From positions 1,798,001 to 1,862,000 of the forward strand of contig NZ_LN831302.1 of assembly GCF_001488575.1 (NCBI RefSeq): DNA of 64,000 nt, in the 5' to 3' direction. How positions within the stretch are numbered: position 1 is the stretch's first letter; every line of letters begins with the position of its first letter. This document shows, one piece after another, positions 8,923 through 59,623 of this stretch. Source of the stretch: Halobacterium hubeiense. GTDB lineage: Archaea > Halobacteriota > Halobacteria > Halobacteriales > Halobacteriaceae. Below the pieces are notes generated by a model, which saw only the letters and a list, made by a program, of their open reading frames with translations, ran no database searches and was not told the DNA's origin. The translations under genes were made by a program, and so were the position numbers.

Positions 8923-10455
8923 ATGTCAGACACCTACGTCGGCTCGATAGACCAGGGGACGACCGGGACCCGCTTCATGGTCTTCGACCACAGCGGGCAG
9001 GTCGTCGCGAACGCCTACGAACAGCACGAACAGATCTACCCCGAACCCGGCTGGGTCGAACACGACCCCGTCGAAATCTGGGAGAACACGAAGTCGGTCG
9101 TCACCGAGGGTCTCGACGCCGCCGGCCTCGACGCCACCCAACTGGAGGCGCTGGGCATCACGAACCAGCGCGAGACCACCGTCGTGTGGGACGCCGCCAG
9201 CGGCAAACCCGTCCACAACGCGCTCGTCTGGCAGGACCGCCGCACCACCGACCGCGTCGAGGAACTCGAAGCCAACGGCGACATCGAGGAGATCCGCGAG
9301 AAGACCGGCCTGGAGGCCGACGCGTACTTCTCCGCGACGAAGACCGAGTGGATTCTGGACAACGCCCAGCCGCTGAAGCTCCAGACCTCGCGCACGCAGG
9401 ACCTCCGCGACCGCGCACGCGAGGGCGAACTCCTGATGGGCACCATCGACGCGTGGCTCATCTACAACCTCACCGGGAACCACGTCACGGACGTCTCGAA
9501 CGCCTCCCGGACGATGCTGTACAACATCCGGGAGCTGGAGTGGGACGACGACCTGCTCGCGGAGTTCGACGTCCCCGCCGAGATGCTGCCGGAGGTCCGG
9601 CCGTCCTCCGACGAGGACCTCTACGGCCACACCGATCCGGACGGCTTCCTCGGCGCCGAGGTCCCTGTCGCGGGCGCGCTCGGCGACCAGCAGGCCGCGC
9701 TGTTCGGGCAGACGTGCTTCGACGAGGGCGACGCCAAGAACACCTACGGTACCGGCTCGTTCTACCTCATGAACACCGGCAACGAGGCCGTCGAGTCCGA
9801 CCACGGCCTCCTCACCACCATCGGCTTCCAGCGCTCGGGCGAACCCGTCCAGTACGCGCTGGAGGGGTCTATCTTCGTCACGGGCGCCGCCATCGAGTGG
9901 CTCGAAGACGTGGACCTCATCAACAACGCCGCCCAGACCGCGGAGCTCGCGCGCTCCGCCGAATCGACCGACGGCGTCTACATGGTCCCGGCGTTCACGG
10001 GGCTCGGCGCGCCCCACTGGGACGGCCGCGCCCGCGGCACCATCGTCGGGATGACCCGCGGCACGGAGAAGAAGCACATCGTCCGCGCGACGCTGGAATC
10101 CATCGCCTACCAGACGCGGGACATCGCGGAAGCGATGGAGGCCGACTCCGGCGTCGAGACCACGTCGCTGCGCGTGGACGGCGGCGCGGTGAAGAACAAC
10201 TTCCTCTGCCAGCTCCAGTCGGACATCATCCAGACGAACATCGTCCGCCCGGAAGTGGACGAGACCACCGCGCTCGGGTCGGCGTACGCCGCCGGCCTCG
10301 CGGTCGGCTACTGGGACGACGTGGACGAACTGCGCTCGAACTGGCAGGTCGACCGGCAGTTCGAACCCGACATGGACGAGTCGAAGGCCGACAAGATGTA
10401 CGGCCGGTGGGACGACGCCGTCGAGCGCTCGCTGGACTGGGCGCAGGAGGACTGA
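8923..10455 (+). CDS. glpK: Glycerol kinase
   Basis: The 510-residue FGGY-family kinase phosphorylates glycerol with ATP to sn-glycerol 3-phosphate, the substrate of the divergent GlpABC enzyme. The N-terminal phosphate-binding stretch SIDQGTTGTR and the C-terminal adenosine-binding stretch DGGAVKNN are intact, and the length matches the family. The ATG at 8923 follows an AT-rich promoter. A membrane-protein gene follows two bases after the stop, so the two are likely co-transcribed. Confidence 0.96.
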   Translation: MSDTYVGSIDQGTTGTRFMVFDHSGQVVANAYEQHEQIYPEPGWVEHDPVEIWENTKSVVTEGLDAAGLDATQLEALGITNQRETTVVWDAASGKPVHNALVWQDRRTTDRVEELEANGDIEEIREKTGLEADAYFSATKTEWILDNAQPLKLQTSRTQDLRDRAREGELLMGTIDAWLIYNLTGNHVTDVSNASRTMLYNIRELEWDDDLLAEFDVPAEMLPEVRPSSDEDLYGHTDPDGFLGAEVPVAGALGDQQAALFGQTCFDEGDAKNTYGTGSFYLMNTGNEAVESDHGLLTTIGFQRSGEPVQYALEGSIFVTGAAIEWLEDVDLINNAAQTAELARSAESTDGVYMVPAFTGLGAPHWDGRARGTIVGMTRGTEKKHIVRATLESIAYQTRDIAEAMEADSGVETTSLRVDGGAVKNNFLCQLQSDIIQTNIVRPEVDETTALGSAYAAGLAVGYWDDVDELRSNWQVDRQFEPDMDESKADKMYGRWDDAVERSLDWAQED

Positions 10456-17796: not shown

Positions 17797-17969
17797 CACT
17801 TTTTGCTGTGGGAGGGCGGCTTCGCCGCCCTCCCGGGCAAAAACTTGCGGAAAAAGCACTCCTCCTTCGCTCCACTCCGTTCCGCTCAGTCGTCGGCCCG
17901 CGCTCCCTTCGGTCGCGCGGTGAACCGCTCGCCTCGGGTCTGTCAGACCACTCGGCTCGCGGATGCTTG
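17797..17969. repeat. Convergent intergenic element, copy A
   Basis: This element lies between the stops of the CBS gene and radB. Ordered parts are CACTTTTTGC (17797-17806), a perfect 11-base stem with a TTC loop (17810-17834), GGCAAAAACTTG and GGAAAAAGC words (to about 17857), a 6-base stem with an 11-base loop (17898-17920, read on the minus strand), GCGCGGTGAACCGCTCGC (17915-17932) and GGATGCTTG (17961-17969). The same words in the same order occur at 55424-55572, reversed, and in reduced form at 21877-21990. A role as a two-way transcription terminator is likely but unproven. Confidence 0.65.
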
Positions 17970-18000
17970 TGCGATAATCTAAATGGGCAGAGTCGGGCAG

Positions 18001-32794: not shown

Positions 32795-33580
32795 CTACGC
32801 CTGCTCTTCTTCCTCGCGGATGGTCTCCAGCTCCGCTTCCACGGCCTCGTCGCCGTCCGCGCCGCGCTCGACGGCGTCCTCGCCGCGGACGTCCGCGCGC
32901 AGCTCGTCCAGCTCTGCTTCGACTTCGCGGTCCCCGCGTTCGGCGTCGAGCTCGCGGTCGATGCGGTCGCGGTCGTCGCCCAGCGGGCCGTCGAGGACCC
33001 CGCGCTCGTCGAGTTCGTCCATCGCAGCGGCGCGGGCCTCCAGCTCCTCGGTCTGGTCTTCCGCGCGCTCGATGGCACGCGTCACCTCGCTGGCCTCGTC
33101 GCCGACCCCAGTGACCGCCTCCGAGACGCGCGTCTGGGCCTGCGCGGCCTCGTGGCGCGCCTTCATCGTCTCCTTCTTCGTGCGGAACTCCTCGACGCGC
33201 GCCTCCAGTTCCTCCTTCTCGTCTTCGAGGTCGCGCTGAGTAGATTCGAGGTCCGCAATCTGGTCGTCTATCTCCTCGACCTGGTCGCGCTTCTGTCGCT
33301 TCTTCTCCAGCGCGCGCCGCGCGAGGTCGTCGCGGTCCTGCCGGACCGCCTCGCGGGCCTGCTCGGCGTGCTTCTCGGCGTTGCGCTGGAGGCGCTCGCG
33401 CTGGACCTCGAGGCGCTTCTTCTGCGCGGTGAGGTCCGCCAGCCCCTTCTCGACGTCCCGCAGTTCGTCGCGCAGGCGCTGGTAGGAGTAGTCCAGCGTC
33501 TCCGTCGGGTCTTCGGCGGAACTGACGACGGCGTTCAGTTTCGACCGGACCGCGTACGAGAGGCGTGACACGATACCCAT
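32795..33580 (-). CDS. pspA: PspA/IM30-family protein
   Basis: The 261-residue protein is almost entirely coiled coil. It begins with the membrane-contacting helix of the PspA/IM30/Vipp1 family (MGIVSRLSYAVRSKLN). PspA proteins assemble on damaged membranes and keep the proton gradient. The charged tail is longer than in bacterial PspA. The TATA-like GTTTTACG lies about 30 bases before the ATG at 33580. Downstream, in the same direction, is a four-helix membrane protein. Confidence 0.85.
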   Translation of the reverse strand: MGIVSRLSYAVRSKLNAVVSSAEDPTETLDYSYQRLRDELRDVEKGLADLTAQKKRLEVQRERLQRNAEKHAEQAREAVRQDRDDLARRALEKKRQKRDQVEEIDDQIADLESTQRDLEDEKEELEARVEEFRTKKETMKARHEAAQAQTRVSEAVTGVGDEASEVTRAIERAEDQTEELEARAAAMDELDERGVLDGPLGDDRDRIDRELDAERGDREVEAELDELRADVRGEDAVERGADGDEAVEAELETIREEEEQA

Positions 33581-33619
33581 ACACACGACTTTGGGCTCTG
33601 GACGTAAAACGTTCACCGG

Positions 33620-33735
33620 CGTGCTCGAACGCAGTGAGAGCACGTTACCACGAACGGCGAGCGGAGCGAGCCGTGAGTCGCGTGCCCGACCGAAGGGAGG
33701 GCACGTTCGGGCGAGCGGCGACCAACGGGAGCCGC
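33620..33735 (+). repeat. Array of four stem-loops with a shared 11-base loop
   Basis: Four perfect hairpins stand in tandem between the divergent pspA and hydrolase genes. Stems are CGTGCTC (33620-33644), ACGGC (33654-33674), CGTGCCC (33681-33705) and GCGGC (33715-33735). The stems differ, but each loop is exactly 11 bases: GAACGCAGTGA, GAGCGGAGCGA, GACCGAAGGGA and GACCAACGGGA. All begin and end with GA, and loop positions 3/9 and 4/8 always pair. The same loop occurs at five further places in the window. Confidence 0.7.
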
Positions 33736-33783: not shown

Positions 33784-34386
33784 ATGCAACAGGAGACCGT
33801 GCTGGTGCCGGGCGCGCGAGACGTGGAAGCGACGCTCGATTCGCCCGACGGGAACGCGTCGGCGTGCGTCGTGCTGTGTCCGCCGCATCCACAGCACCGC
33901 GGGCACCGCGGCGACGACCGCCTCGTCGCCGTCGCGGAGTACCTGACCGAGCGCGGCGTCGCGGCGCTGCGCTTCGACTACGGCGACTGGGACGAGGGAC
34001 TCGGGGAGCGCGAGGACGCACGGAACGCACTCCGGTGGGCGAGCGAGCGCTACGACACCGTGGGCCTGTTCGGGTTCAGTTTCGGCGGGTCGATAGCCGC
34101 GCTCGCCGCCGCGAGCGTGGACGTCACCCTCTGTGCGGTGTCGCTGCTCGCGCCGACCGCCGAACTCGAAGCCGGGCTGAACGCCGCGGACGCGCTCGCG
34201 GACGTGGCGGCGCCGCTACAGGTCGTCTACGCGACCCGCGACACGACCGCGGACTGGGAGCCGGTCGTGGAAGCCGCCCGCGAACTGGACTGCGAGGTCG
34301 TGGAACTGGACGCCGACCACTTCTTCGTCGGGAAGACCGACCGCGTCGCGGAGGCCGTCGGCCCCTTCCTCGCGCAGTCCTGCTAG
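33784..34386 (+). CDS. Alpha/beta hydrolase
   Basis: The 200-residue protein has the alpha/beta-hydrolase fold: a CVVLCPPHPQHRG oxyanion-region strand, the nucleophile elbow GFSFGGS (Ser in GxSxG), and a late DADHFF histidine. It is cytoplasmic. It resembles the short dienelactone hydrolase-like or acyl-peptidase-like hydrolases seen in many archaea; the substrate is unknown. ATG at 33784 follows the stem-loop array. Confidence 0.85.
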   Translation: MQQETVLVPGARDVEATLDSPDGNASACVVLCPPHPQHRGHRGDDRLVAVAEYLTERGVAALRFDYGDWDEGLGEREDARNALRWASERYDTVGLFGFSFGGSIAALAAASVDVTLCAVSLLAPTAELEAGLNAADALADVAAPLQVVYATRDTTADWEPVVEAARELDCEVVELDADHFFVGKTDRVAEAVGPFLAQSC

Positions 34387-52811: not shown

Positions 52812-52878
52812 CCGATGGACGCCGTCCATCGGGGTCCCGCTCGTTCCACTCGCGGGACTCCCGCTGGGACTTCGACGA
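52801..52878 (-). repeat. Compact four-way-junction-forming sequence
   Basis: A closing stem of nine bases (52801-52809 with 52870-52878) encloses three perfect hairpins: an 8-base stem with a 3-base loop (52813-52831), a 7-base stem with an 11-base loop (52834-52858, loop GAGTGGAACGA on the minus strand) and a 4-base stem with a 3-base loop (52859-52869). Only five bases are unpaired at the junction. The outer stem overlaps the displaced copy of the neighbouring gene's 3' end. This could be a cruciform, a recombination site or a structured RNA. Confidence 0.6.
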
Positions 52879-53431: not shown

Positions 53432-53540
53432 TACCACGCGGTTGGCCCGCCGAGCGGTTAAGCCCCGCGAACGACACCGCCTGCAGTTCGGGTCGATATT
53501 AGTGCTGCGGCGGAGCCCGTCGTACACGTCCAGAAAGCCC

Positions 53541-53650
53541 GGGTCGCTCGGTACTCCGGGACTCGCTGCGCGCGCTCGCTTCGCTCGCGTGCTTGCTTCG
53601 TCCGGGAGCAGCCGAGCGACCCGCCCCTTTCAGTCCACCCGTTACCGGCC
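53541..53650. repeat. Long hairpin with a shared tail word
   Basis: The arms GGGTCGCTCGG (53541-53551) and CCGAGCGACCC (53612-53622) are perfect 11-base complements. On the minus strand the loop contains the GAGCGAAGCGA 11-base loop word (53576-53586) in a smaller GC-rich stem. The hairpin is followed by TCCACCCGTTACCGGCC (53634-53650), and almost the same word ends the element at 59594-59611. It lies in the 283-base region between two divergent genes; no gene is visible there. Confidence 0.55.
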
Positions 53651-59544: not shown

Positions 59545-59623
59545 ACTCCCAAGCCCTCCTCGCTCGCTTCACTCGCTCGTCGCCCTTGGAGATTCCACCA
59601 GGTTACCGGCCGATTCAATCGGC
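59545..59623 (-). repeat. Hairpin element between the two 3'-end copies
   Basis: On the minus strand it contains a perfect GCCGATT-AATCGGC hairpin (59609-59623), the word GGCCGGTAACC-TGGTGGA (59594-59611, shared with 53634-53650), and a CTCCAAG/CTTGGGAG stem enclosing purine-rich GA-rich repeats, including GAGTGAAGCGA (59564-59574). Confidence 0.55.

Follow-up and report, generated by a model that had tools for sequence, protein, structure and literature searches.

Tandem arrays of GA-loop hairpins beside Halobacterium promoters: a candidate family of extrudable DNA repeats

The window, which is the whole 64,000-nucleotide stretch of Halobacterium hubeiense DNA analysed here, contains a divergent gap of 203 bp between a pspA-like gene and an alpha/beta-hydrolase-like gene, and much of this gap is occupied by an array of four hairpins. 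Gene boundaries, here as elsewhere in this work, are those of our own codon-usage caller and not of an annotation. The genes and elements of the locus are the following:

32795 to 33580, minus strand: pspA-like gene, PspA/IM30 family by similarity (without a domain scan), with its start 39 nt from the array
33604 to 33609, minus strand: TATA-like TTTTAC of the pspA promoter, recognized from the sequence and from aligned promoters; the array starts 10 nt further upstream
33620 to 33644, plus strand: A hairpin 1, CGTGCTC - GAACGCAGTGA - GAGCACG, 7-bp stem
33654 to 33674, plus strand: B hairpin 1, ACGGC - GAGCGGAGCGA - GCCGT, 5-bp stem
33681 to 33705, plus strand: A hairpin 2, CGTGCCC - GACCGAAGGGA - GGGCACG, 7-bp stem
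33715 to 33735, plus strand: B hairpin 2, GCGGC - GACCAACGGGA - GCCGC, 5-bp stem, ANC tip variant
33784 to 34386, plus strand: alpha/beta-hydrolase-like gene, named from reading its sequence, on the far side of the gap

All four hairpins that a sequence-only reading had described at 33620-33735 of the plus strand were found there. Their stems, of 7, 5, 7 and 5 bp, are perfect, their loops are those that it gave, and loop positions 3/9 and 4/8 pair in every one of them. The loops are 11 nt long and follow the formula GAxyNNNy'x'GA; three carry the tip C(GNA)G and the remaining one C(AAC)G. B hairpin 1 has an extra GA/GA immediately outside its stem (33652-33653 and 33675-33676). Each unit is a palindrome of which one strand is predicted to fold into an outer stem, a tandem sheared G.A, two base pairs and a GNA triloop closed by C-G. 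The array has no T-run at its end, such as an archaeal U-tract terminator would show, and the search against Rfam at gathering thresholds returned no match in the window and tRNAs only in ten related loci.

Similar hairpins occur elsewhere on the minus strand of the window:

17898 to 17920, minus strand: GA-loop hairpin with a 6-bp stem (CCGCGC...GCGCGG), within a longer repeat (R1) that ends in TTTTT and lies in a convergent gap
52834 to 52858, minus strand: GA-loop hairpin GTCCCGC - GAGTGGAACGA - GCGGGAC, with T-A at loop positions 4/8
53573 to 53589, minus strand: GA-loop hairpin with 3 perfect pairs, imperfect beyond, within an element (R2) of the form GGACTGAAAGGGGC...GGGCTTTC

The earlier reading had listed four minus-strand copies. 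Two of them, with loops at 17904-17914 (6-bp stem) and 52841-52851 (7-bp stem, T-A at 4/8), hold up, while the other two are weaker: the copy at 53576 has the 3 perfect stem pairs mentioned, and that at 59564 has T.G at 4/8 and lacks a perfect stem of at least 4 bp.

R1 was observed to be a modular element of about 120 nt, AGCATCCGCGAGC-[hairpin]-GGTTCAC-[hairpin]-GGCCGACGA-[hairpin]-GGAGTGCTTTTTCCGCAAGTTTTTGC, in which the hairpin slots carry modules of differing length. It is found at 17840-17980 (minus strand) of the window and, for example, at 9014, 446915, 571697 and 585740 of C1 of the same genome; its T-run mostly falls 53-66 nt, and in some copies further, from where a gene on the opposite strand ends, and no R1 was seen in divergent gaps. 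R1 is possibly a multicopy noncoding RNA. R2 has the form GGACTGAAAGGGGC-[variable long perfect stem]-GAAGYAAGCAC-[GA-loop hairpin]-GCGCAGCGAG-[stem']-GGGGCTTTC; besides the window (about 53490-53640, minus strand) it is found at 285823, 1692225 and 2127667 of the same C1 and, in a second genome (G053), near 240520-240740 and 335210-335430 of C1. Both Halobacterium and another haloarchaeal family have it in repeated copies whose stems differ, and it has no Rfam match.

Three genomes were sampled in depth, with about 1.9 Mb of the genome of the window and 0.4 Mb each of G123 and G053. The GA loop stands out from chance in two unbiased counts. Among hairpins with stems of at least 7 bp and loop lengths of 3-16 in 1.66 Mb of the same genome, sorted by loop-end dinucleotides, GA..GA at loop length 11 reached 47 cases, and no other class with loops of 4 nt or more exceeded 26. 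For 2x2 internal loops that enclose a 2-bp inner stem and a 3-nt tip, there were 87 cases of GA/GA against 13 for the next type apart from the complement TC/TC, and other inner lengths gave no comparable GA/GA excess. The hairpins are also strongly intergenic, with 65 of the 70 full-loop hairpins (stem of at least 4) and 116 of the 135 loops that combine C-G at 4/8, a Watson-Crick pair at 3/9 and a GNA tip lying between genes, in sampled DNA that is about 87% coding. A loop consensus that is just a by-product of a GC-rich simple repeat, the condition that would have refuted the earlier reading, is excluded.

The mismatches clearly over-represented beside such loops are tandem G.A again, at pairs 3/4 and 6/7. 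Nested GA/GA layers are spaced by 2 bp (14 cases) or 5 bp (25 cases), by 4 bp once, and never by 3, 6 or 7 bp; two such layers were observed on the minus strand at C1:766111 of the same genome, beside tRNA-gene-like sequence, in the form ACGCCCGC-GA-AC-GA-AC-GAA-GT-GA-GT-GA-GCGGGCGT. The lack of T at loop position 3 had been considered as a sign of sheared G.A stacking. It was rejected as structural evidence, since GATC is avoided genome-wide (1485 seen against 6345 expected in the sample of this genome, a ratio of 0.23); CTAG is likewise strongly avoided (0.31).

The hairpins belong to a family of dispersed tandem arrays in which a 7-bp "A" hairpin (CGTGnnC-loop-GnnCACG) alternates with a 5-bp "B" hairpin (GA[A/G]CGnn-loop-nnCG[T/C]GA) at a spacing of 32/29 nt, and 71 of 75 neighbouring hairpins lie on one strand, in head-to-tail order. 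The pattern CGTGNNNGANCGNAGNGANNNCACG, which leaves four pairs free, was matched by 102 listed copies, which come from 17 of the 146 haloarchaeal genomes searched and mainly from Halobacterium; its reversed form had no copies there. A simpler pattern, GAGCGNAGCGA, applied across the phylum was abandoned as too noisy, with a high reversed control.

We were able to show both the fold potential of the A set and its covariation. The free pairs of the 102 copies are Watson-Crick in 391 of 408 cases, against about 228 expected by independence; at three of the pairs, which vary strongly, no permutation came up to this, and at the fourth, which barely varies, 1 of 2000 did. An independent count on 56 distinct sequences put the covariation score at 0.377 (0.087 in comparison; 0 of 500 shuffles), and structures slid along the sequence scored at most 0.09. 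Such permutation tests overstate independence, because the copies share descent as paralogues and have probably recombined. Several loop types are seen with one and the same stem sequence, and this holds for several stem sequences. The proposed hairpin family, with a tandem G.A beside a two-pair inner stem and a GNA tip, is supported; the covariation of the earlier reading is borne out at both loop pairs in the larger set and reaches into the stems. Support is also found for the conservation of a folded strand, for which that reading had left RNA and single-stranded DNA side by side. What is kept across copies is self-complementarity together with an ultra-stable tip, not the letters.

In 17 of the 55 intergenic A copies examined, the copy lies upstream of a start codon and begins 33-50 nt from it, with a mode at 40; the GA strand is antisense to that gene, and in many of these 17 a TATA-like sequence lies between array and start codon. 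By gap type, A arrays are found in 16 divergent gaps, in 7 tandem ones and in none of the convergent ones, of which there were only 89. In 40 of the 55 copies the gene on the 5' side points away, so that its transcript would not include the GA strand. Since the GA strand is antisense and the array lies upstream of the promoter, a transcript in the GA orientation is mostly not expected. From reading their sequences, neighbouring genes encode L37Ae, SRP54, SRP19, RfcL, UvrB, acyl-CoA dehydrogenase, methylmalonyl-CoA mutase and CtaA, and the idea of a regulon was rejected, as array-adjacent genes look like unrelated housekeeping genes.

The constant CGTG/CACG ends, the fixed position near -40, the shared orientation and the regular spacing might all be expected if a protein bound CGTG...CACG and GAACGG...CCGTGA as duplex sites beside the promoter, that is, if the arrays were double-stranded operators. 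Such an operator would leave the self-complementarity of the variable interior without explanation, and it is at odds with the missing regulon and with the many orthologues that have an intact promoter and no array; we regard it as quite improbable.

Whether the strand folds as RNA or as DNA was approached through the tips. An unbiased scan of 332 kb of intergenic DNA from Halobacterium for perfect hairpins with stems of at least 8 gave 154 triloops and 37 tetraloops. C(GNA)G accounted for 105 of the 154 triloops, whereas coding DNA had it in 14 of 180; among the 154, G(GNA)C occurred once, and GNRA and UUCG tetraloops were nearly absent. The same scan of 300 kb of E. coli, as a control, gave 30 tetraloops (8 GNRA, 3 UUCG) and 5 triloops, none of them C(GNA)G, and in 57 other haloarchaeal loci the tendency was weaker, with C(GNA)G in 9 of 23 triloops. 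The tip rule established in this way corresponds to properties described for DNA: a DNA loop of the GNA or GNNA type is extraordinarily stable and resists nucleases when joined to at least two G-C pairs (PMC4686876), and extrusion of the phage N4 promoter hairpins at physiological supercoiling needs a C:G closing pair and a loop with 5' G and 3' A (PMC4496689).

The C(GNA)G hairpins in tandem gaps show no sense bias (28 sense, 36 antisense). Moreover, the repeat slot TTTTGCCGA-[hairpin]-GCAGCGCAAAA (near 107884 and 446701 of C1 of the same genome, and at block-B 355370 and 774922, to which 1400001 is added for C1) was seen to hold varied C(GNA)G palindromes. Counted by eye from the list, their GNA lies on one strand of the slot in about 7 cases and on the other in about 5, a freedom that a strand-specific RNA would hardly tolerate. 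Wobble pairs are not in excess, with G.T 6 against A.C 4 among mismatches of the A set and G.T 18 against A.C 23 among the five pairs nearest to intergenic loops, small counts with too few cells to decide alone that serve as support.

These observations bear on an RNA-level alternative, in which the hairpins would do their work in transcripts, by forming 3' ends, by marking sites of processing or by serving an RNA-binding protein, for instance L7Ae, as ligand. RNA often contains tandem G.A pairs, and R1, whose elements share the loop, has TTTTT at its end and could be transcribed. Hairpins have also been reported near some 3' ends in Haloferax (PMC7237163). The antisense A arrays that start upstream of promoters, the C(GNA)G hairpins without sense bias, the lack of a G.U excess, the scarcity of GNRA and UUCG, the absence of an Rfam match to the arrays at gathering thresholds and a loop inverted in one species (see below) all speak against this alternative, which we hold to be unlikely. 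The proposed link to kink-turn or K-loop ligands of L7Ae is not supported: a tandem sheared G.A adjoining a helix is shared, but the internal loop is a symmetric 2x2 GA/GA, no 3-nt bulge was found between the C-stem and the tandem G.A, and the GA orientation, often antisense, is probably not transcribed; the lack of a G.T excess and the DNA-type tips point the same way. Orientation, the missing G.T excess and, most strongly, the choice of tip favour a DNA structure, and judged by these sequence features the hairpins probably act as DNA rather than as RNA.

The hypervariability of the arrays is documented by orthologous loci. Among 13 Halobacterium genomes, the pspA gene was found in 9 and the pspA array in 6 of those 9; in five species other than that of the window this array lies at the same place and differs by compensated changes only. 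Seven of the 13 genomes have an array before srp54 and eight before rfcL, and orthologues without an array retain a similar promoter up to the identical boundary. Counted over species pairs, the pair differences at the pspA, rfcL and srp54 sites comprise 57 compensated against 2 uncompensated changes. Between the genome of the window and G128, only 1 of 34 promoter-flank positions at pspA differs, yet three whole base pairs of the first hairpin do. The loop of this first hairpin is inverted in one species, and other species keep the CGTG...CACG ends around a different loop or a plain palindrome (a perfect palindrome at srp54 in G128). In G123, the pspA array (upstream at C1:2361068) was observed to consist of three near-identical 80-bp units, apparently a recent tandem expansion. 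Presence and absence, together with the change of whole modules, agree better with a family of repeats than with one conserved regulatory site, and units may be exchanged between copies.

Fast and nearly always compensated change between near-identical flanks is also what a mutational by-product would look like, in which intrastrand template switching or palindrome correction keeps the arms complementary and stable tips nucleate or survive the process, with no selected function. The perfect palindrome in G128 and the few wobble pairs would agree with this, and nuclease-resistant GNA tips (PMC4686876) might outlast hairpin nucleases. However, copying of arms should convert GA/GA into GA/TC, and GA/GA persists around covarying pairs; neither the fixed promoter position nor the A/B order is predicted. 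We consider a by-product rather unlikely.

The dispersed copies, present or absent at the same sites, raise in addition the question of a mobile REP-like element spread by a Y1/HUH transposase (IS200/IS605 or RAYT type) acting on single-stranded DNA hairpins, which would be compatible with the hairpins being DNA structures. The genome has four Y1_Tnp genes (one chromosomal, three on plasmids), but GA hairpins are absent beside the chromosomal one, the copy that was examined. REP/BIME elements of the GTAG and CGTC super-families (PMC3733652) share with the arrays that they are dispersed, extragenic, short palindromes that are often clustered, and differ from these head-to-tail, promoter-side arrays with hypervariable stems in an archaeal host, for which no linked transposase was found. 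Inspection of the copy list revealed no GTAG or CGTC tag that the copies share at the base of the palindrome, the A flanks being mostly (n)AG|CGTG...CACG|TTA, and head-to-head or tail-to-tail dimers do not predominate. By sequence, the arrays appear REP-like in habit and fall outside REP membership in tag and dimers; spread by such a transposase seems unlikely to account for them.

Among known systems, the closest parallel is offered by the early (vRNAP) promoter hairpins of phage N4, which share with the arrays the short hairpin, a 3-nt tip of the C-GNA-G type, a sheared G.A in the loop, the template strand and the place near the transcription start (PMC4496689). Extrusion of the N4 hairpins depends on supercoiling and on the tip bases, and they are phage-borne and themselves the recognition site of the RNA polymerase (PMC4496689). 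The Halobacterium arrays likewise have a C-G-closed triloop of the GNA type, but they are tandem and chromosomal, lie upstream of archaeal TATA promoters and add the tandem GA layer, and their extrusion is inferred only. The DNA minihairpins d(GCGNAGC) (Hirao, Yoshizawa), as far as they are described in the work that cites them (PMC4686876), share a GNA loop closed by at least two G-C pairs; these are oligonucleotides, whereas in Halobacterium we see a genome-wide intergenic tendency with stacked tandem GA and with A-T allowed as the second pair.

Each of the four alternatives has evidence against it, and we consider it fairly probable, from sequence comparison, that the hairpins of the window are one array of a dispersed, REP-like family of extrudable DNA hairpin repeats of Halobacterium that act as promoter-edge structures. 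The arrays lie at the upstream edge of the core promoter, where transcription of the neighbouring gene would generate negative supercoiling, and a stable GNA tip together with stacked G.A pairs would make extrusion cheap, either as a cruciform or as a single-strand hairpin. Extruded hairpins may be recognized or tolerated as structure, as are the template-strand promoter hairpins of phage N4. Extrusion might absorb torsion, insulate the promoter or mark its edge, so that absorption of supercoils or insulation of promoters would be the cellular role of the arrays. The nuclease-resistant tips may also shield the arrays from hairpin nucleases, and over evolution units would be replaced by exchange with other copies.

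More tentatively, haloarchaea, and Halobacterium foremost, may possess a general intergenic DNA-structure code, in which C(GNA)G modules, often on tandem G.A, stand at set distances from the edges of transcription units (for A/B arrays, some 40 nt ahead of start codons; for many R1 elements, about 57 nt past gene ends). These modules would be swapped, inverted and rewritten while their folding is kept, and would work as extruded DNA.

No earlier description of the hairpin family was found in REP surveys, papers on haloarchaeal termination and processing, a survey of hairpins in 118,019 genomes and searches with sequence strings, as far as these sources were accessible; subscription journals lay outside this scope, so that an earlier description is possible. 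The kept folding and the DNA-type tips suggest that the arrays are a class of DNA-level structural elements new to the searched literature. To our knowledge, the DNA minihairpin rule is otherwise known only from oligonucleotides and a phage promoter. If our interpretation is true, the arrays would represent a cellular, genome-wide use of this rule and a natural example in which covariation points to DNA and not to RNA structure. It would also be a warning that covarying haloarchaeal hairpins obtained from covariance-model searches may not be RNAs. The question of cruciforms in vivo would then become testable on dozens of defined, naturally variable promoters, with empty alleles in sister species.
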